Below, piece after piece: positions 28,696-38,322 of a DNA stretch of 55,109 nucleotides. The notes beneath the pieces were generated by a model, which saw only the letters and a list, made by a program, of their open reading frames with translations, made no database searches and had not been told where the DNA came from. The position numbers and the translations under genes were made by a program. This stretch comes from Spirochaetaceae bacterium. GTDB taxonomy: Bacteria; Spirochaetota; Spirochaetia; DSM-27196; PWMO01. The stretch is from contig REDW01000071.1 in the NCBI GenBank assembly GCA_007693325.1, positions 1-55,109 on the forward strand, read 5' to 3'. How positions within the stretch are numbered: position 1 is the stretch's first letter; every line of letters begins with the position of its first letter.

Positions 28696-29981
28696 GGCGC
28701 CGGCTGCACTTCGGGCGAGCCGCAGCAGCGCTTGTGCTGCTACTACTACTGCCGCCGGTGGTGGCATCGGCTACCGATTGGGACTGGGGCGGCACTATCG
28801 ATAACACCACGCAACTCGGGTTCAGCACCATGTACGATGAGGTGCAGCTGTCACAAAAGCTCAAGGTCGGACTGTGGGTGAGCGGACTGCGGCCGCTGGA
28901 CGGCGGCGGCTCGCTGGAGCTGACCGGCGCCGGCAGCTACAGCTACAGCGATGAACGCGCCTATATCTTTGATATCGACCTGTTACGCTGTGTTGGAAGA
29001 TTTCCCGGAGCGTTAGGCCAGCGGTCACTGTTGCAGACTACGGCAGGTCGCACCGTTTTTCGCGACCCTACCGGACTGGTTCTCGATCACACTGCCGACG
29101 GCGCAATTGTGCGGCTGAACTACCCGGGCGTCCGTCTGCGTGCCGGCGCAGCTTACACGGGGCTGCTCTTGAGTCCCGCGTCCAGCATCCGGATCTCCAA
29201 CACAGATTACATGGAGGCCGCCACTGACGATCAGTTCTTTGGTCCCAGGCGTGCGATCGGGCTGCTGGACGTCACTGTGGGCGGGCTGAGCCTGTTCACG
29301 CTGGCGCAGTTTGACCTGCGCGATGACGGCGATGAGGACTCCATCGACACGCAGTACTTCGGTATCAGCGGAACGGGGCGGCTAGGGCGGTCGGGTTATT
29401 CGGACAGCTTCATGATCATCAGTACCGGTCAGGAACAGGTTGGAGCCGGCGAAACTTCGCTGTTCTCGTTTGTAGTGGGAAGCGGAGTGCGTTTCTTTGC
29501 TGAACAGCTGCGTTTCTCGCGAGCTTCGTTTCGCGCTCTGTACGCGAGTCCTTTCCTGCCGCTGGAAGACGATATCGGCTTCAATATCTACCAGTTCAAG
29601 CCGATCAACGAGCCGACCCTGGGGCTGGTTTTCACTCCGCGTCTGTCTAACCTGATCTTCACCGAACTAGACTACTCGCTGCGCCCGTTTGCCGGACAGC
29701 AACGATCTGCGGCCGATTCGATTCGCGTCGGCATCACCGGACGCGGCTTCTTCCGTGGTTACAGCGGTGACATAGATTATATCGACAAGTTTGACCCGAA
29801 CTCGGACTCACTCTACCTGGGAACCGAGCTGGAGCTGGGCGTAGCGGCACGCGTCCTCTCGGACCTGGGCCTCTCGCTGCGCGGCGGCGTATTTGTGCCG
29901 GGAAGCGGAGACCGCGGCGCGTTCTCCAGCGAGCGCGCACCGGAGTGGGCGCTGCGCTTCGATCTATCAACGGGATTCTGA
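28692..29981 (+). CDS. Outer-membrane beta-barrel-like protein
   Basis: 429-residue protein with an N-terminal signal peptide (ALVLLLLLPPVVASA) and a mature part made of many alternating polar/hydrophobic strands rich in Gly, Tyr and Phe (GAGSYSYSDERAYIFDIDLL, GVRLRAGAAYTGLLL), ending in ALRFDLSTGF with a C-terminal Phe, the hallmark of a BAM substrate. It should sit in the outer membrane; ligand or transport role unknown. The start is GTG 28692, overlapping the previous stop by four bases. The next gene, a FecR-domain protein, starts 10 bases after the stop. Confidence 0.75.
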   Translation: MRRRLHFGRAAAALVLLLLLPPVVASATDWDWGGTIDNTTQLGFSTMYDEVQLSQKLKVGLWVSGLRPLDGGGSLELTGAGSYSYSDERAYIFDIDLLRCVGRFPGALGQRSLLQTTAGRTVFRDPTGLVLDHTADGAIVRLNYPGVRLRAGAAYTGLLLSPASSIRISNTDYMEAATDDQFFGPRRAIGLLDVTVGGLSLFTLAQFDLRDDGDEDSIDTQYFGISGTGRLGRSGYSDSFMIISTGQEQVGAGETSLFSFVVGSGVRFFAEQLRFSRASFRALYASPFLPLEDDIGFNIYQFKPINEPTLGLVFTPRLSNLIFTELDYSLRPFAGQQRSAADSIRVGITGRGFFRGYSGDIDYIDKFDPNSDSLYLGTELELGVAARVLSDLGLSLRGGVFVPGSGDRGAFSSERAPEWALRFDLSTGF

Positions 29982-29991
29982 GGTGGGAACC

Positions 29992-30672
29992 ATGAAAAAG
30001 CACGTGATGGCAGCGCTTGTTTGTATGCTGCTCTGCGCCGGCGCCTGGGCACAGCACACTGCGGTTGTGCAGTCTACCAACGGCAAGGTGGAAGTTCGAC
30101 ACAACGGCGAATGGGAGGCAGCCAGCGCCGGAATGGAGCTGCCGCTCGGCGCCACAATCTCAACCGGCTTTGGCGCTTCGGCTACCGTTGAAGTGGCGGG
30201 CGCGGTTGTTGATGTGCGCGCGCTGACGCGCATGCGGATCGATGAACTGGCCGAGCGCGAGGGGGTGCTCAGCGCTGAACTGTTTCTGCCGGTCGGCCGC
30301 GTGCGCGCCGAAGTGCGCGGTGTGCAAGGGCTGGAGAGCGAGTTTCGTCTGCGCAGCACGCAGGCTACCGCCGCGGTGCGCGGAACCAGCTTTGAGTTTG
30401 ACGGCCGCAATCTGCGCGTGCTTACAGGCCGGGTGCAGCTGACAAACCAGCTGCAACAGAGTGTCACCGTCAGCGGCGGGGAGGGTAGCCAGGTTGGCGA
30501 CAGCGGTGAGCTGGCCGGCGGCAGCGAAACACGGGAGCGCATCAGCGCGGTTCAGGTAGCGGTAACCAGCTTTGAAGACGCAGCCACAACCTTCCTGCAG
30601 CGCCGCGATGAGCTGGGTACCGGTGCGATCAGGGTTGAGTGGACAATTACCGATCAGGAGACACCGCAATGA
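29992..30672 (+). CDS. FecR-domain exported protein
   Basis: 226-residue protein with signal peptide (MKKHVMAALVCMLLCAGAWA). A FecR domain follows: GKVEVRHNGEWEAASAGMEL, then LGATISTGFGASATVEVAG and AAVRGTSFEFDG. FecR domains in spirochaetes occur in periplasmic or surface proteins that are unrelated to iron control, so the domain name does not prove iron regulation. There is no membrane anchor or sigma-factor partner in this operon. GAGGTGGG precedes the ATG. Its stop overlaps the ATG of the lipoprotein gene by four bases, indicating coupling. Confidence 0.8.
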   Translation: MKKHVMAALVCMLLCAGAWAQHTAVVQSTNGKVEVRHNGEWEAASAGMELPLGATISTGFGASATVEVAGAVVDVRALTRMRIDELAEREGVLSAELFLPVGRVRAEVRGVQGLESEFRLRSTQATAAVRGTSFEFDGRNLRVLTGRVQLTNQLQQSVTVSGGEGSQVGDSGELAGGSETRERISAVQVAVTSFEDAATTFLQRRDELGTGAIRVEWTITDQETPQ

Positions 30673-31517: not shown

Positions 31518-31546
31518 TTGACAGATTGCGGAAGTGGGTCTAGACT
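31518..31546 (+). promoter_or_regulatory. Strong promoter of the corrinoid methyltransferase operon
   Basis: Consensus TTGACA (31518-31523), exact 17-base spacer, TAGACT (31541-31546). Predicted transcription start near 31553, which leaves a leader of about 70 bases. Confidence 0.7.
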
Positions 31547-31582
31547 TACCTGTACTTTTTTAAGAGGGTTTAATTAGTGCAG

Positions 31583-31603
31583 CACCCTGCAGCAGTGCGG
31601 GTG
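31583..31603 (+). other. Leader hairpin of the methyltransferase operon
   Basis: CACCC (31583-31587) and GCA (31589-31591) pair with TGC (31596-31598) and GGGTG (31599-31603) around a GCAG tetraloop, with one bulged T. Six bases later the ribosome site GAGGAGG (31609-31615) begins. It could stabilise the 5' end of the message or act as a translation control element; no B12-box sequence was seen. Confidence 0.4.
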
Positions 31604-31623
31604 AGATCGAGGAGGCTATTGGA

Positions 31624-32826
31624 ATGGCAAAGAGCATGCAAGAGCTTTACGAGGAGCGGATGGATCGCTACTGGAAAGCCAATCATCTGCAGAAACCGGA
31701 CAAGGTACCGTTTCGACCGTGTGCTGCCGAGCTGGCCGGCAAGATCGCCGGATACACTGCGCAGCAGGTCACGCACGATCCGGACCTGGGACTCGATGCG
31801 GTTGTCAAGATGTGTCAGGCCGTGCCCGGCATCGACGCAACGGTGGTCAATATGGTGTTTGTCAACACTTCGGTCACCGAGTCCTACGGACTGAAGTACT
31901 ACAAGGTTCCGGGGATCGACCTGGACGCAGATGATTCGTTTCAGTATATCGAGCCTCAGACCGAAGAAGACGCGTTTATGAAAGTGGAGGAGTACGACCG
32001 CTTCATCGAAGACCCCAACGAGTTTGTCATGAATGTCTGGCTGCCGCGGACCTCCAAGTATATGGTACCACCGGGTGAGCAGAACACGTGGAAGAATAAC
32101 CTTGCGTGGTTGAAGAACGGAATCGCCATCCAGCAGTACTTTCAGAAGCTGGGCGCCAACGTGGCGCGCATGCAGACTGAAACCGGTACGGTCTCCAGCC
32201 TTGCCGGCGCTCTGAAGGCGCCGTTCGATATTCTGGCTGACAAGTTTCGCGGATTTCGCGGCATCGCCTACGATCTGCATCGATGTCCGGACAAGGTTCT
32301 CAAGGCCACCGAGGCGGTTGCACCGCATATGGCGTGGAATTGCATTGCCACTGCAGACCCCAGCAGGAAGGTGCCGTGCAGCCACTGGATGCATCGCGGC
32401 GCAACCGGATTCTTTTCCGAAGAGGTGTTTGAGAAATTCCACTGGCCAACGCTCAAAATGGTTACCGAGCAGATCTGGGAGGCCGGAATACAGACCATCT
32501 ACTACGCCGAAGGCAAGTGGGCGCGCAATCTGAAGCATTTCCGCCAGCTGCCCGAGCAGAGTATCATATTTCACTGCGACAAGGATGACATCTACGAGGT
32601 CAAGCGGGTCCTCGGTGATAGATTTGCTATCAGCGGCGGGGTACCAAACGATATGCTGGCGTTCGGCGAGCCGGCGGATGTGAAGAAGCGCGTCAAGCAG
32701 TTGATAACCGACTTCGGTCCTGACGGCGGCTACCTGCTGGATGCGGAGGCGATCATGCAACAGGACGTCAAGGTCGAGAATTTCATCGCAATGGCACAAG
32801 CCTGCGAAGAGTACGGTTACATCTAA
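31624..32826 (+). CDS. Uroporphyrinogen decarboxylase-fold methyltransferase (MtaA/UroD family)
   Basis: 400-residue TIM-barrel protein related to UroD and the MtaA/MtbA corrinoid methyltransferases, probably the substrate-specific component (MT I). The C-terminal family pattern is recognisable: LGDRFAISGGVPNDMLAFGE and GYLLDAEAI. The three zinc ligands of MtaA-type thiol methyltransferases (HxC and a later Cys) are not found: the first site reads YAEGKW and the last reads LLDAEA. A pair of glutamates spaced by 14 residues (E296 and E311) is present with an Asp 20 residues after the second, which recalls the E-x14-E-x20-H zinc motif I remember from acetogen O-demethylase MT I proteins but is not exact. 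The substrate is therefore open: a methoxyaromatic, a methylated amine or a sugar ether. GAGGAGG lies upstream, and the 53-residue gene follows after 29 bases. Confidence 0.85.
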   Translation: MAKSMQELYEERMDRYWKANHLQKPDKVPFRPCAAELAGKIAGYTAQQVTHDPDLGLDAVVKMCQAVPGIDATVVNMVFVNTSVTESYGLKYYKVPGIDLDADDSFQYIEPQTEEDAFMKVEEYDRFIEDPNEFVMNVWLPRTSKYMVPPGEQNTWKNNLAWLKNGIAIQQYFQKLGANVARMQTETGTVSSLAGALKAPFDILADKFRGFRGIAYDLHRCPDKVLKATEAVAPHMAWNCIATADPSRKVPCSHWMHRGATGFFSEEVFEKFHWPTLKMVTEQIWEAGIQTIYYAEGKWARNLKHFRQLPEQSIIFHCDKDDIYEVKRVLGDRFAISGGVPNDMLAFGEPADVKKRVKQLITDFGPDGGYLLDAEAIMQQDVKVENFIAMAQACEEYGYI

Positions 32827-32855
32827 AGGATCAACAGGAGACGAGGAGGACTATC

Positions 32856-33017
32856 GTGCAAGAGTCTAAGAGCGTGCCCGGGGTCTGCTTTCCCTGGGAA
32901 GAGAAGAAGAAAGAGTACGCAGAGATAAAGGGTGACGAAGAAGTTGTAAAGGCATGGTGGGAAACGTATGATGTTCACGCCTACGTGCATTTGTGGTTTT
33001 GCGTGACCGGATTGTAA
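32856..33017 (+). CDS. Unrecognised 53-residue protein in the corrinoid operon
   Basis: Small protein between the UroD-fold methyltransferase and the corrinoid protein. The start is GTG 32856 with a strong ribosome site, GAGGAGGA, ending five bases upstream; the stop is TAA 33015-33017. The central part is charged (EEKKKEYAEIKGDEE), flanked by an N-terminal FPW motif with one Cys (VCFPWEE) and a Trp/His-rich end (KAWWETYDVHAYVHLWFCV) with a second Cys. I do not recognise any family, and it is too short for usual gene-finding thresholds. Position and ribosome site argue that it is expressed. It could be a subunit or assembly factor of the methyltransferase; no function is claimed. Confidence 0.7.
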   Translation: MQESKSVPGVCFPWEEKKKEYAEIKGDEEVVKAWWETYDVHAYVHLWFCVTGL

Positions 33018-33041
33018 GCACTACGGAGGAGTCGGGATCAC

Positions 33042-33680
33042 ATGGATATCAAGAAAATCTCTGATCTGTTGGTTGAGCTGGAAGAAGAGAAGGTCTACGA
33101 TGCTGTGGATGAGGCGATAGAGCAGGGCGTTTCGGGCAGAGAGATACTGAAGGCCAGCCAGGCCGGAATGGCCACCATCGGCGATATGTACAAGCGGGAA
33201 GAAGCGTTTGTGGCAGACATGATGTTTGCCGGCGAGATCATGCGCAACATCCTTAACAAAATCCAGCCGCTGCTGGAGAAGGAAGGCGGCAGAGAGAAAG
33301 CCATCGGCAAGGCAATCCTCGGCACGGTCAAGGGTGATATTCATGATCTGGGTAAAGACGTGGTCATGATTGCGCTGGAGGGCAACGGATTTGAAGTCAT
33401 AGACCTGGGCGTGGATGTAGCGCCGGAAAAATTCGTTGAGGCTGTCAATAACAACCCGGATGCCAAAGTACTCGGGTTGAGCGTGTTCCTGACTTCGGCG
33501 TTCCCGTCAACCGAGAAGACGGTCAAGGCAATCGCTGAATCGGGAAACCGCGACAGGGTCAAGATCATGGTTGGCGGTGCGCCGGTGACGGAAGTGGTTG
33601 CGCGTGAAACCGGTTGCGACTATTTTGCCGAAGACGCCGCTGCAGGTGTGAGCTATACCAAAAGCGTCTACGGTGTCTGA
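33042..33680 (+). CDS. Methyltransferase corrinoid protein (B12-binding)
   Basis: 212-residue cobalamin-binding methyl carrier, like MtaC/MtvC and the cobalamin module of MetH. An N-terminal four-helix bundle cap (residues 1 to about 85, with QAGMATIGDMYKREE) precedes the Rossmann-like B12 domain, which holds the base-off ligand motif DIHDLGK and the later GLSVFLTSAFPSTEKTVKA and VGGAPVT. The lower-ligand histidine is in DIHDLGK. It accepts a methyl group from the first methyltransferase and passes it to the MtrH-like enzyme. A ribosome site (GGAGGAG) lies upstream. The gene follows the 53-residue gene with a 24-base gap. Confidence 0.95.
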   Translation: MDIKKISDLLVELEEEKVYDAVDEAIEQGVSGREILKASQAGMATIGDMYKREEAFVADMMFAGEIMRNILNKIQPLLEKEGGREKAIGKAILGTVKGDIHDLGKDVVMIALEGNGFEVIDLGVDVAPEKFVEAVNNNPDAKVLGLSVFLTSAFPSTEKTVKAIAESGNRDRVKIMVGGAPVTEVVARETGCDYFAEDAAAGVSYTKSVYGV

Positions 33681-33740
33681 CGGTATAACAGCCGCGTGCG
33701 CAGCAGCGAGCGGCAGCCGGGCAGCTGAGGGAGCAACCGT

Positions 33741-34550
33741 GTGAAGATCGTGGGCGAGAAGATAAACGGCACGCTTGCCAGGGTGCGCACGGCAATTGAG
33801 AACCGCGACGAGGAGTACATCCGGCAGCTGGCGCTGGCCCAGGTAGAGGCCGGGGTTGACTGGCTTGACGTAAATGCGGGTACGTCACCCGCACGAGAGC
33901 TCGGTGATCTTCTGTGGCTGATCGAGTGCGTGCAATCGGTGAGCGAAGTTCCTGTCTGCCTGGACAGCGCCAATCCCGAGCCATTGGCACACGCAGTGCG
34001 CAAACTGGACCACAGCCCGATGATCAACTCCATCAGCCTGGAGCAGAAGAAAGTCGCCGAGATCCTGCCGGTTGTGCGGGAGTACCAGTGCGATGTAATC
34101 GCGCTGGCAATGGATGACAATGGAATGCCGCAGACCGTTGAACAACGGCTGGAGATTATTAGCCGGTTACTGGAGCTGACCGATCGCGCCGGTATTCCGC
34201 TGCACAAGGTCTATATAGACCCGTTGCTTATGGGGGCTGCTACCAACACGGACAGTGGACAGATTGCGCTGGATACCATCCGTATGACCGCCACGCGGTG
34301 GCCCGGCGTTCATTTCTGCGCCGGCCTGAGCAACATATCCTTCGGATTGCCACACCGGTCGATCATCAACCAGGCTTTTGTCAGCCTGGCGATCAGTGCT
34401 GGTCTGGATACCGCCATTCTTGATCCGCTGGACAGAGAGCTGAGAGGCGCAATACTGGCAACCGAGTTGGTACTCGGGCGTGATCGTCACTGCCAGAACT
34501 ACACTCGGGCGGCAAAACAACAGGCAATTGGAAGGCAGCGGTCGGCGTAG
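33741..34550 (+). CDS. MtrH/AcsE-like methyltetrahydrofolate:corrinoid methyltransferase
   Basis: 269-residue pterin-binding TIM barrel (MT II). Folate-binding family features are present: GEKINGT at the N-terminus, DWLDVNAGTSP (DxNxG), then CLDSANPEPL and IALAMDDNGMP, and FCAGLSNISFGLP near the end with the catalytic Asn. It should transfer the corrinoid-bound methyl group to tetrahydrofolate, or the reverse. GTG 33741 is the start, with GAGGGAG upstream. The 60-base gap after the corrinoid gene has no terminator, so the operon continues. In acetogens such enzymes feed the Wood-Ljungdahl pathway, but no acs genes are in this window. Confidence 0.9.
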   Translation: MKIVGEKINGTLARVRTAIENRDEEYIRQLALAQVEAGVDWLDVNAGTSPARELGDLLWLIECVQSVSEVPVCLDSANPEPLAHAVRKLDHSPMINSISLEQKKVAEILPVVREYQCDVIALAMDDNGMPQTVEQRLEIISRLLELTDRAGIPLHKVYIDPLLMGAATNTDSGQIALDTIRMTATRWPGVHFCAGLSNISFGLPHRSIINQAFVSLAISAGLDTAILDPLDRELRGAILATELVLGRDRHCQNYTRAAKQQAIGRQRSA

Positions 34551-34562
34551 TATAGTATCGAA

Positions 34563-35765
34563 ATGCAGAAATCCGTGGAGCTGAACCGAGCGGTGGAAGC
34601 AGCCGGGAGGCTGCTCGATCAGAACAGCATCAAGCTGGCCAATCGGAAGGTGATTCTCGATCTTCTGCTCCAGGAACGAATTCTCACCAAGCAGGAGATC
34701 AGTGAGCGCACCGGGTTCAGTTTTCCCACCGTATCAAACAGCATAAACAGCCTGTTACAGCAGGGATTGGCACGCGAGGCGGGAACCGCAGACTCGACCG
34801 GTGGCAGGAAACCGAAGCTGATCGAGTTCAACCCCAACTCGCGCTTTGCGTTCGGGGTAACCATACAGGGACAGGGAATCCGGGTTGTGCGGACCAACAT
34901 CGACATGCAAATTGTTGACGACCTGGAAGTCCCGATGCGCCGCGGGTCCAGCGCGGCGGCCCTGATTGAAACGATCTGTTCGTCAGTCAGCGATATGATC
35001 TGCCGCAGCGGAACATCGATACAGAACTTCCTTGGAATCGGCGTAGCGGTGTCTGGATACGTTAACCGCAAGGCAATCATGATTGAGGCTGCATCCAATC
35101 TGGGACTGAAAAACGTCAGCCTGGCTTCGCTTGCCGATAGAACGGGTTTGGCGGTGTACATCGAGAACGAGGCCAACGCCGCGGCGTTGGCGGAGCAGCG
35201 GCTCGGTATTGCGCAGGGCATGAGCAACCTCATCTATATTTCGATAACCGAAGGCGTCGGGTCGGGAATGATAATAGACGGTCGGTTGTATATGGGTGCC
35301 CACAATCGTGCCGGTGAACTGGGGCACCATACGGTTGTTCCCGGAGGCAGGATCTGCAGTTGCGGCAAGCGTGGATGCTGGGAGCGCTACGTAGCCGAAG
35401 ACGTGCTGCTGAACGATTACCGCTCGGTTACCGGAAACGACGGCGTTGGTCTCGAAGAGTTTTTTGCCGATCTCTCTGAGCAGCACCCGCAGGCGGCAGA
35501 ACTCTGGGAACGCTACGTCTCGTATCTGGTCACCGGGCTGCACAATATTGTAGCCATTTACGATCCGCACTACGTGGTCATAGGGGGAAATATCGCTGAG
35601 TATCCGCAGTACCTGCTGCCGGCGCTGATGAAGGGTGTCTTTGGTGCTTCGTCGTATTATCAGCATGAAGACACGTATATCCTGGTGTCCGAGCTGAACA
35701 AGGACGCATTCATTCTGGGCGCGGCATTTCTGCCGATGGGCACCCTTCACGCCCGCCTGGGGTGA
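34563..35765 (+). CDS. ROK family transcriptional regulator
   Basis: 400-residue protein with an N-terminal winged helix-turn-helix (LTKQEISERTGFSFPTVSNSINSLLQQGLA) and a ROK (repressor, ORF, kinase) sugar-binding domain. The zinc-binding signature is CSCGKRGCWE, preceded by AGELGHHTVVPGG. ROK regulators usually sense sugars or amino sugars and repress sugar operons, so its place inside a corrinoid methyltransferase operon is unusual. It probably controls this operon, for instance through the region around 31518-31603. The ATG at 34563 starts 12 bases after the previous stop. Its stop overlaps a possible GTG start of the next gene (GTGA). Confidence 0.92.
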   Translation: MQKSVELNRAVEAAGRLLDQNSIKLANRKVILDLLLQERILTKQEISERTGFSFPTVSNSINSLLQQGLAREAGTADSTGGRKPKLIEFNPNSRFAFGVTIQGQGIRVVRTNIDMQIVDDLEVPMRRGSSAAALIETICSSVSDMICRSGTSIQNFLGIGVAVSGYVNRKAIMIEAASNLGLKNVSLASLADRTGLAVYIENEANAAALAEQRLGIAQGMSNLIYISITEGVGSGMIIDGRLYMGAHNRAGELGHHTVVPGGRICSCGKRGCWERYVAEDVLLNDYRSVTGNDGVGLEEFFADLSEQHPQAAELWERYVSYLVTGLHNIVAIYDPHYVVIGGNIAEYPQYLLPALMKGVFGASSYYQHEDTYILVSELNKDAFILGAAFLPMGTLHARLG

Positions 35766-35782
35766 GACTGTATGAGGCAGCA

Positions 35783-37627
35783 ATGAAACCCGTTGTGACG
35801 ATCCAACCGTTCAACGTCGATGCGGACTACAGCGCCGGCGATGTACTGTTGGACGTTATCATACGGGCGGGGATTCCGATCGCCAGTTACTGCGGCGGGC
35901 GCGGGACGTGTGGCAAATGCGTGGTAGAACTGCGTAGTGGTGCGGTTGAAGCGCGGCCGGGCATGCCGGTGGGTGCAGCGGTTGAAGCGTCAGCAGGGCA
36001 AAGCCAGCGGGTGTTAGCCTGCTCGGTACGGGTTCTGCGAAATTGCTCGATCGCTATCCCCGGCGGCTCTATTGACACGTCCCTGCAGACCCAGACCGAG
36101 CACGCGGACGTGCGCAAGTTTACGAGTGCAAATCCGGTAGTTGAGTTCCGCACAGTCTCTCCTCCGGCGCCGGATCTCCAAGACCCGCGCTCGGATGCCG
36201 AGCGCCTGACGGCTCAGCTGATGATCGAGCACGGTGTGGAGGTTCGGTCTATAGACGCCCTGGTGCTGCGCAAATTGTCGCAGACTCTGCGCAGCAACCT
36301 TTGGAACGTCGGCGTTACGCTGTATCAGCACGAGATTGTTGACGTCGGTTCGCCGCAGCAGACGCCGCTGGTTGTTGCCGTGGATATCGGTACCACTACG
36401 TGTGCAATCTATCTGCTGGGGTGCAACAACGGCGCGCAACTCGCTGTTGCAGGGGTGACAAACCCGCAAACACCGTACGGGGCGGACGTGGTGAGCAGAA
36501 TCAGCAGGGTTGTTGAGGCGCCCGAACTGGCGGCTACACTACGCGCAATGCTGGTAGAGCAGCTTAACGCGGTGATAGGACGCCTCTGTGCCCAAAGTGG
36601 TGTTACTGCCGAGCGGATTGCTTGTGCTGTGTTTGTGGGCAACACCGCCATGCATCACCTTTTTCTGGGGCTGGGAGTGGAACAACTGGTGAACTCGCCC
36701 TACGTGGCGACTCTGTCACGAGAATATTTCGTCAAGGCCAGAGAGATCGGACTGTCGGTTGGACCGGGAGCCTGGGCCTGTTGCCTGCCGATTGTGGCAG
36801 GGTACGTGGGGTCCGACCACGTGGCGATGCTGCTTGCATGCGGGGCGAGACAGCAGCGCGGCAATGTGCTCTACATCGACATGGGAACCAACACCGAAAT
36901 GTGTCTGGCAACCACCGAGAGCCTGTTTGTAGTCTCGACACCTTCGGGGCCGGCCTTCGAGGGAGCGCATATTCAACTTGGAATGCGCGCAGAAGCCGGG
37001 GCCATCGATGCATGCTCTATCGACGAGCAGGGTAGCTTCGTTTATAGCACCATCGGCGGACAGAAACCGAGAGGGCTTTGTGGCTCGGGAATCCTCGATG
37101 CTATTGCGGCTGCCTTCGGCGCCGGCATCATCGATTGGCGCGGTAGGCTGCAGAATTGCCGGCAGGTCAAGGAGGTATCCGGTCAGCGACGGCTTGTCAT
37201 CGTTGCTGCTGACGATACCGATGAGGATAGCGAGGTGTTCCTGACACAGGCAGACATTCGCGAGTTTCAACTTGCAAAAGGCGCCATCAGCGCCGGGATT
37301 GCTGTACTGGCTCAGTGTGCGGGAATCGAGCTCCATGACATCACCAGAGTTGTTCTTGCCGGAGCGTTTGGATCGCACATCGATAGCGGCAACGCGCTGC
37401 GCCTGGGTATTATTCCGGTGCCTCAGGATATTCAGATAGAGCAGGTTGGCAATGCCGCCGGCGCAGGTGCGTGCATGGCAGCGGTGGACGCTGCCACGTC
37501 TGACTCTGTTCAAGCCATCTGCCGAGAAATTCAGTACGTTGAACTGGTAACCGCAGCGGCTTTCAAATCGATCTACGCGCGCGCCACCTATCTTGGGAAC
37601 CGGTTTGCACAGCGAGGTGAACGATGA
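35783..37627 (+). CDS. RACE-type reductive activator of corrinoid proteins (2Fe-2S + ASKHA)
   Basis: 614-residue ATP-dependent activator that returns inactive Co(II) corrinoid to Co(I). An N-terminal plant-type 2Fe-2S ferredoxin domain carries C37, C43, C46 and C80 (YCGGRGTCGKC, then VLACSV). A linker leads to an ASKHA ATPase module (AVDIGTTTCAIYLL, with VDIGTTT, then YIDMGTNTEM and VLAGAFGSHIDSGNA). ATG 35783 is preferred because GAGG lies seven bases upstream; GTG 35762 would overlap the ROK stop. The gene overlaps the next by four bases (ATGA). It should work on the corrinoid protein at 33042. Confidence 0.92.
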   Translation: MKPVVTIQPFNVDADYSAGDVLLDVIIRAGIPIASYCGGRGTCGKCVVELRSGAVEARPGMPVGAAVEASAGQSQRVLACSVRVLRNCSIAIPGGSIDTSLQTQTEHADVRKFTSANPVVEFRTVSPPAPDLQDPRSDAERLTAQLMIEHGVEVRSIDALVLRKLSQTLRSNLWNVGVTLYQHEIVDVGSPQQTPLVVAVDIGTTTCAIYLLGCNNGAQLAVAGVTNPQTPYGADVVSRISRVVEAPELAATLRAMLVEQLNAVIGRLCAQSGVTAERIACAVFVGNTAMHHLFLGLGVEQLVNSPYVATLSREYFVKAREIGLSVGPGAWACCLPIVAGYVGSDHVAMLLACGARQQRGNVLYIDMGTNTEMCLATTESLFVVSTPSGPAFEGAHIQLGMRAEAGAIDACSIDEQGSFVYSTIGGQKPRGLCGSGILDAIAAAFGAGIIDWRGRLQNCRQVKEVSGQRRLVIVAADDTDEDSEVFLTQADIREFQLAKGAISAGIAVLAQCAGIELHDITRVVLAGAFGSHIDSGNALRLGIIPVPQDIQIEQVGNAAGAGACMAAVDAATSDSVQAICREIQYVELVTAAAFKSIYARATYLGNRFAQRGER

Positions 37628-38322
37628 TAAAGAGTGATTTCCAGTTCGAACTCGATCCAACCGCGGTGCTGAGCTACGCCGGCGGCGCCATAGAGAAGCG
37701 GCTCAGGCATCCCGACTACCGCTGGATTCTCGATCACGCCGCCAGCAACCTTCAATCGCTGGTGGAGCCGCTGGTGGTCTGGAACCGTTTTACGATAGCC
37801 GGGCAGCTGCACGACAAAGTCCTGCTGCAGAACGGAGGCAAAGTCGGCAGTGGTCCGCTGGCTGCAGTGGTTGCCGGTGCTCACGAGCTTGTAGTGGCTG
37901 TGTGCACCGTTGGACCCGCGCTTGAGGCTAAGGCAAAGGCGCTGATGAAGGGCGGCTCGATGCTCGAGGGGATCATACTCGACGGCGTGGCGTCGTGGGC
38001 TGTTGATGATCTTCGCTGCATGTTCTACAGCTGGGCTATGCAGACGGTTAAGGATAATGAGGGCTACCGAGCCAGCAGCTATCTGAGCCCCGGCGAATCC
38101 GATTGGTTGATCGATGATCAGCGCGTAATATTTGAGCTGCTGGCCGCTGACATTCCCTCAGACAGAATAGCACTTACCGAATCCAACGTGATGGTGCCGT
38201 TCAAATCGCTCAGTATGGCCTTTGGTATTGGCCCGGACGAGATGGGTAGCGAAGGTGAATCGAACTGCGATCGCTGCACGATCAGGGAAGTCTGCAGATT
38301 CCGGCCGCTGAGAGCCGGGTAG
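37624..38322 (+). CDS. Vitamin B12-dependent methionine synthase activation domain-like protein
   Basis: 232-residue protein resembling the AdoMet-binding reactivation domain of MetH: the family motif appears as SYLSPGESDWLIDDQRVIF, in two parts SYLSPGESDW and DDQRVIF, followed by LTESNVMVPFKSLSMAFGIG. It ends in a Cys-rich tail (CDRCTIREVC) that may hold a metal or a cluster. Stand-alone proteins of this kind are found with corrinoid methyltransferase systems, where a reactivation or corrinoid-handling role is thought likely; AdoMet binding is inferred. Together with the upstream RACE protein, two repair-like components appear in one operon. It ends 65 bases before the M18 peptidase, where the operon may stop. 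Confidence 0.8.
   Translation: MIKSDFQFELDPTAVLSYAGGAIEKRLRHPDYRWILDHAASNLQSLVEPLVVWNRFTIAGQLHDKVLLQNGGKVGSGPLAAVVAGAHELVVAVCTVGPALEAKAKALMKGGSMLEGIILDGVASWAVDDLRCMFYSWAMQTVKDNEGYRASSYLSPGESDWLIDDQRVIFELLAADIPSDRIALTESNVMVPFKSLSMAFGIGPDEMGSEGESNCDRCTIREVCRFRPLRAG

Follow-up and report, generated by a model that had tools for sequence, protein, structure and literature searches.

A ROK-associated corrinoid methyl-transfer operon of a spirochaete, with a divided first methyltransferase and a probable role in demethylating O-methylated sugars or polyols

Which methylated compound is served by a corrinoid methyl-transfer operon that carries its own ROK-family regulator, in a spirochaete whose genome has no match to AcsB? 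The question is raised by positions 31518–38322 of a 55,109-nt stretch of DNA from a Spirochaetaceae bacterium (contig REDW01000071.1, assembly GCA_007693325.1; 'the window' means this whole stretch), for which a first-pass annotation had proposed a corrinoid demethylase of an undescribed type under ROK control, perhaps for a methylated sugar. Our analysis supports that proposal: the operon probably encodes a ROK-regulated cobalamin-dependent O-demethylase that would act on an imported O-methylated sugar or polyol and pass the methyl group to tetrahydrofolate, and its relatives show a carbohydrate ABC transporter, sugar-catabolic genes and a shared operator. Moreover, its first methyltransferase (MTI) is divided between two genes.

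The seven genes all lie on the + strand, from 31624 to 38322, and the ORF map together with Pfam and NCBIfam searches gives a full corrinoid methyl-transfer operon. The MTI gene (31624–32826) encodes the 400-aa catalytic part of a UroD-fold methyltransferase (URO-D, PF01208, E 8.6e-15), and is followed by a 53-aa ORF (32856–33017) with its own GAGGAGG ribosome-binding site and a GTG start. The corrinoid protein (CP; 33042–33680) has B12-binding (PF02310, E 5e-24) and B12-binding_2 (PF02607, E 3e-12) domains, and the cobalamin motif GDIHDLG (DxHxxG) can be read directly from its sequence. The second methyltransferase (MTII; 33741–34550) has a Pterin_bind domain and scores 311.5 bits, above the cut-off of 259, with NF005719/PRK07535, the NCBIfam family of methylTHF:corrinoid/FeS-protein methyltransferases; we annotate it as an AcsE/MtvA-like methyl-corrinoid:tetrahydrofolate methyltransferase. 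The remaining genes encode the ROK-family transcriptional regulator (34563–35765; PF00480, E 3e-53, with HTH), a RACE/RACo-type ATP-dependent corrinoid reductive activase (RACE; 35762–37627, with ATG at 35783 as a possible alternative start; Fer2 with RACo linker, middle and C-terminal domains, RACo_C_ter E 2e-74) and a MetH-activation-domain-like accessory protein (37624–38322) that matches 1j6r (E 1.2e-5), a structure deposited as methionine synthase. With an MTI adjoining a dedicated CP, a pterin-binding MTII and a RACE/RamA-type activase, the operon belongs by its gene content to the general corrinoid-dependent MTI/CP/MTII/activase kind. The first-pass annotation had listed seven adjacent genes with a UroD-fold methyltransferase, a corrinoid carrier, an MtrH/AcsE-like methyltransferase, a RACE, a MetH-activation-like protein and an embedded ROK regulator, and the searches bear out each of these, as well as its limits, since 31518 is the −35 box (TTGACA) and 38322 the last stop. 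Its description of the host as spirochaete-like and without acs genes also stands: the operon is found again, with an MTI of 100% identity, on a Spirochaetales contig (L069), and AcsB (PF03598) finds no match in the window's genome (3.47 Mb, 97.5% complete), which encodes MetF. An Rfam search of the window returned tRNAs only, and no cobalamin or other riboswitch.

What is the 53-aa ORF between the MTI and CP genes? Loci compared here are labelled L and genomes G (G000 is that of the window, G003 holds both L050 and L073, and G395 both L071 and L076); all relatives are metagenome-assembled genomes, and their counts are lower bounds, the genome contigs having been scanned for them with two 6–7-residue motifs. 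An ORF of this kind occupies the equivalent position in L069, L070, L071, L072, L073 and L074, that is, in six other loci (five of Spirochaetota and one of Desulfobacterales), and the differences between the window and L070 copies are distributed 7/6/22 by codon position. Because of this protein-level conservation and codon pattern, we take the ORF to be a real gene. Used alone, it gave nothing significant with phmmer or Pfam. A hidden Markov model (HMM) built from the window copy and five orthologs, however, matched the last ~45 residues of 454–477-aa MTIs, with E values of about 1e-6 to 1e-8. These MTIs come from Desulfobacterota and, in one case, a spirochaete (L099, L100, L102, L103 and L011, which also appear as L105, L106, L109, L108 and L052), the residue pattern of the tail being pWeeKk-Ey--IkGDEe-vk--wE---laY--LW. 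In a tree made without the tail columns, these longer MTIs group together as sister to the window clade, with support of 100/100 for the window clade and 94/92 for the joint node. The window-clade MTI terminates at EYG-x-[I/L/Y], where the linker to the tail starts in the sister MTIs, and neither CdmB nor the MTIs outside the two clades have a tail. Thus the homology between the 53-aa ORF and the C-terminal tails of the longer sister MTIs shows MTI to be divided into 400 + 53 aa, the small gene encoding its tail; the first-pass annotation had missed that this gene is a detached part of MTI. The tail may have been detached in the window clade or fused in the sister clade. It is predicted to form two helices (14–18 and 28–51), and a fold search of the PDB with its model gave no match. 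We considered a sequencing frameshift as the cause of the split and rejected it: the split recurs in seven loci with gaps of 18–30 nt, and a ribosome-binding site is visible in the split-MTI sequences. Because the spacing varies through all three frames, the two-gene arrangement is a real one.

The family placement of MTI bears on its substrate. The nearest solved structure is that of CdmB (9rui, E 5.4e-32; 3e-39 in the profile search), from the CdmBCA chloromethane system of Acetobacterium dehalogenans, which shares with the window system the superfamily and the three-component logic (PMC13222342). This match would suggest a haloalkane dehalogenase of the Cdm kind, a reading that we regard as very improbable: the conserved pocket positions are H257, E296, H317 and D322 in MTI and W, Q, W and N in CdmB, CdmB has no C-terminal tail and a different gene context, and a ROK repressor with a carbohydrate transporter would make little sense for a diffusible gas. 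In the trees CdmB falls outside the window clade, which sits on a long, fully supported stem of 0.91–0.95 changes per column; a CdmB fragment is the sole characterised O-demethylase-type reference in these trees, which hold no OdmB, VdmB, MtvB or MtoB sequence. Tight clustering with a characterised methyltransferase, which the first-pass annotation had named as speaking against a new system, is not seen with this single reference (E 5e-32). The MtaA/CmuA family (TIGR01463) and the Mlp clusters (PMC10418091) are also alike in their UroD superfamily, corrinoid partner and Ram/RACE activator, but MTI lies far under the TIGR01463 cut-off (22.4 versus 235.4 bits), and the window operon has no methyl-sulfur genes. 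The fold model of MTI matches uroporphyrinogen decarboxylase and a methyltransferase of M. mazei, and a search of plasmid records with MTI returned one distant match in Sporomusa.

Within the window clade, E282-X13-E296-X20-H317 and H257 are invariant, and H257 and E296 are kept in nearly all spirochaete homologues and are different in CdmB. The first three residues resemble E-X14-E-X20-H, which we take to be the zinc motif of the A. dehalogenans O-demethylases. CdmB has been reported to be zinc-independent (PMC13222342). At the positions equivalent to 296 and 317 it has Q and W. Metal-assisted cleavage of an aliphatic ether by MTI would thus be plausible.

The same placement admits an ordinary aromatic O-demethylase of the OdmB/VdmB/MtvB/MtoB type, which would convert methoxyaromatics to phenols, the transporter of the relatives then serving an unrelated or an aromatic-glycoside substrate. 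The nearest characterised neighbourhood of MTI is indeed the UroD-fold O-demethylase/CdmB part of the superfamily (PMC13222342), and this reading is also favoured by the retention of H257 and E296 with nearly all spirochaete homologues, and not with CdmB, and by the likeness of E282-X13-E296-X20-H317 to the zinc motif of the A. dehalogenans O-demethylases. The aromatic systems (OdmABCD/VdmB, MtvABC and MtoABCD) likewise join a UroD-fold MTI, a CP, a pterin-binding MTII and a RACE in one operon, and by this analogy the window operon would work as they do. On the other side stand the long stem of the window clade and several differences in layout: MTI is a single chain in the aromatic group and two genes here, the regulator is of the ROK family, and the host has no PF03598 match, whereas the aromatic group is expected in acetogen or methanogen hosts with acetyl-CoA synthase (ACS).

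The transporters of the relatives weigh further on this choice. The cassette lies directly downstream of a CUT1-type carbohydrate ABC transporter in three of them (L072, L074 and G003), with a binding protein (SBP) of the SBP_bac_1 family, BPD_transp_1 permeases and ATPases closest to UgpC/MalK, i.e. CUT1. A single strand of L072 carries ROK, SBP, permease, permease, ATPase, ATPase, MTI, tail, CP, MTII, RACE and the MetH-activation-like gene, the last of which is also part of the cassette in L055. In L074, from Desulfobacterales, the order is transaldolase/FSA, xylose-isomerase-like protein, SBP, two permeases, two ATPases, MTII, MTI, tail, CP and HAD hydrolase, flanked on both sides by PfkB kinases (two, on the opposite strand) and with a GntR-regulator-looking ORF upstream. 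G003 shows permease, ATPase, ATPase and then MTI (L050). Two MTI copies in G003 were considered and rejected: the fragments (L050:8427–8810 and L073:7896–9086) overlap in sequence and end in N gaps, as expected of one gene broken by scaffolding, and gene order in this assembly is to be read with care. Orthologous SBPs of 46–48% identity occur in alphaproteobacterial plasmids (H2 and H3); the four transporter genes that come next are again the same, and after the SBP there are also genes for Gfo/Idh/MocA, a sugar isomerase, an aldose epimerase and SDR proteins. The aromatic demethoxylation genes of Methermicoccus are accompanied by MFS transporters (PMC8630106), whereas the relatives of the window have CUT1 ABC transporters, one of them under the same operator as MTI, with sugar kinase, aldolase and isomerase genes nearby; an aromatic substrate is hence unlikely.

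Another alternative keeps the CUT1-like transporter and changes its cargo to a small non-sugar osmolyte or other methylated compound (glycerol ethers, cyclitols or methoxyacids). Glycerol, polyols and cyclitols are likewise among the cargo of CUT1 transporters, the weak best matches of the PfkB and Gfo/Idh neighbours are inositol enzymes, and samples of soda-lake, marine or vent type seem to be the source of the named relatives. These IolC/IolG/IolE-like scores, however, are far under the curated cut-offs, and quaternary amines use the unrelated MttB family, so that we find this alternative distinctly unlikely.

A sugar or polyol substrate is also suggested by a second MTI lineage of spirochaetes. 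G245 (L055) has a cassette with a distinct MTI and the order CP, MTI, RACE, MetH-activation-like gene and MTII. Upstream of it, and on its strand, lie a pair of GH4 alpha-galactosidase-like genes and genes for an Rbs-type ABC transporter, a Gfo/Idh/MocA protein, a class II ketose-bisphosphate aldolase, a fucose-isomerase-like protein and an FGGY kinase. The Gfo/Idh protein of this cluster shares 71% identity with the one that neighbours the split-MTI locus in G003, and the close relatives of the G245 MTI in G068 and G061 (L053:6352–7383 and L056:7322–8323) adjoin a class II fructose-bisphosphate aldolase and a PfkB kinase. This lineage, embedded in a full sugar-catabolic cluster, supports by its gene neighbourhood the sugar or polyol reading of the window operon. 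A signature shared by MTI with the G245, G068 and G061 MTIs (W255, H317, N342, D373 and M378; 6 versus 0–4 in controls) was only modest and is not relied on. L055 and L125 together (G245 contig C88, about 43–65 kb) are a candidate O-methyl-sugar pathway in their own right. Separately, beside sister methyltransferases, a GntR gene (of the GntR-UTRA type in L106) and a gene for a second, stand-alone corrinoid-binding protein occur repeatedly as a pair (L106:11401–12847, also L107, L109, L052 and L059), which could be a corrinoid-linked sensing pair.

How might the operon be controlled? A scan found a promoter-like site TTGACA-N17-TAGACT on the + strand at 31518–31546, a layout that recurs in L072 and L076, and mismatch scans found, just 3′ of the −10 box, a putative ROK operator at 31554–31578 (+), the 25-bp imperfect palindrome ACTTTTTTAAgagggTTTAATTAGT. 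Its form, ACTTTTTTAA-N5-TTTAATTAGT, has 20 fixed bases and, in the MTI promoter, overlaps with the region of the start site. At ≤3 mismatches this is the sole match in the window, with 0 matches in 100 shuffles, and the sole match in the whole genome. All 20 fixed bases recur 5′ of MTI in L069, L070 and L072; copies with 1 mismatch precede the transporter permease in L072 and come after the SBP gene in L076, whose contig ends before the place expected for a permease, and weaker ones lie before the SBP in L072 (4 mismatches) and before MTI in L071 (5 mismatches). The −35/−10/operator layout is identical at the strong sites, namely at MTI in the window, at both MTI and the permease in L072, and behind the SBP gene of L076. 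Orthologs of the window ROK protein have 66% (L070) and 52% (L072) identity with HTH, ExGH and CxCGxxGC conserved; the L072 gene sits upstream of the ABC transporter, and in G395 the SBP adjoins a ROK gene (L076). The window protein itself has the domains and motifs of a ROK repressor with a sugar ligand, including the sugar-site ExGH and the CxCGxxGC metal motif. Because the site is shared across loci that carry ROK orthologs, and the loci where no ROK ortholog was found beside the cassette have no site with <5 mismatches, the ROK protein is likely to read 31554–31578, as judged from co-occurrence. An AT-rich palindromic operator at the promoter, HTH and ROK domains and both motifs are also features of NagC/Mlc/XylR-type repressors; the window ROK differs in its assignment to a methyltransferase cassette and, in relatives, also to the transporter of that cassette. 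There is no sign that through this site it serves an unrelated sugar locus, the other outcome that had been held to speak against the proposal, as the MTI operon has the one copy of the operator in the genome.

The favoured demethylase for sugars or polyols would work as follows. A methylated carbohydrate would enter, in the relatives through the linked SBP-permease-permease-ATPase-ATPase system and in the window's species through some other transporter. The two-piece MTI, a 400-aa UroD-fold barrel with the 53-aa tail acting in trans, would transfer the ether methyl to Co(I) of the CP, freeing a hydroxyl sugar for ordinary catabolism. MTII would pass the methyl to tetrahydrofolate and, without ACS, the CH3-THF may be oxidised or used for methionine. 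RACE, helped by the MetH-activation-like protein, would re-reduce Co(II). Without inducer, ROK bound across the start site would repress transcription, and the sugar or a derivative of it would relieve repression.

Several points weigh against this scheme. Neither the window's genome nor that of L070 yielded the linked SBP or an ortholog of it, and only permeases of ~30% identity occur there, so that the argument from uptake rests on the relatives. L073/L050 and L074 have no operator with <5 mismatches and no ROK ortholog beside the cassette. Confidence in the MTI model is modest (pLDDT 66). An alkoxide is a poorer leaving group than a phenolate, and among the characterised UroD-fold MTIs we know of none that accepts aliphatic ethers of sugars. 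The wider proposal, of an anaerobic corrinoid pathway for O-methylated sugars in which a carbohydrate ABC transporter and a heterodimeric, split MTI with its tail in trans are joined in a regulon under ROK and methyl groups feed the folate metabolism of a non-acetogen, has in our judgement an even chance of being right.

The genome holds other candidates for methyl transfer. A second corrinoid cluster with a RACE, a corrinoid protein and several UroD-family proteins is found on contig C118 (L065:2088–17198), and 18 UroD-family matches across the genome make this spirochaete rich in possible methyltransferases. Near the cassette, a FecR-domain protein gene lies at 29893–30672 of the window, and a similar-looking ORF, possibly by coincidence, adjoins the cassette in L073 (L073:9949–10785).

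A literature search on corrinoid demethylation of methylated sugars returned nothing relevant, the nearest broader match concerning methanol metabolism. The sugar demethylation route that it did return is the P450 demethylation of 6-O-methyl-D-galactose in marine bacteria (PMC10033563), which shares the presumed substrate class, a sugar methyl ether; the P450 is oxidative, O2-dependent and releases formaldehyde, whereas the window system is proposed to transfer the methyl anaerobically to tetrahydrofolate. The chemistry of the window operon is of a known kind, and the split enzyme and the sugar wiring are new. Sugar methyl ethers are widespread in algal, cyanobacterial and bacterial polysaccharides. 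If our reading is true, a cobalamin route would explain the use of methylated sugars in anoxic sediments and microbial mats, and would carry cob(I)alamin chemistry beyond phenol ethers to aliphatic ones. The operon supplies defined genes for a direct test of cobalamin sugar demethylation, and the split MTI is a natural dissection of the role of the C-terminal tail in such methyltransferases.

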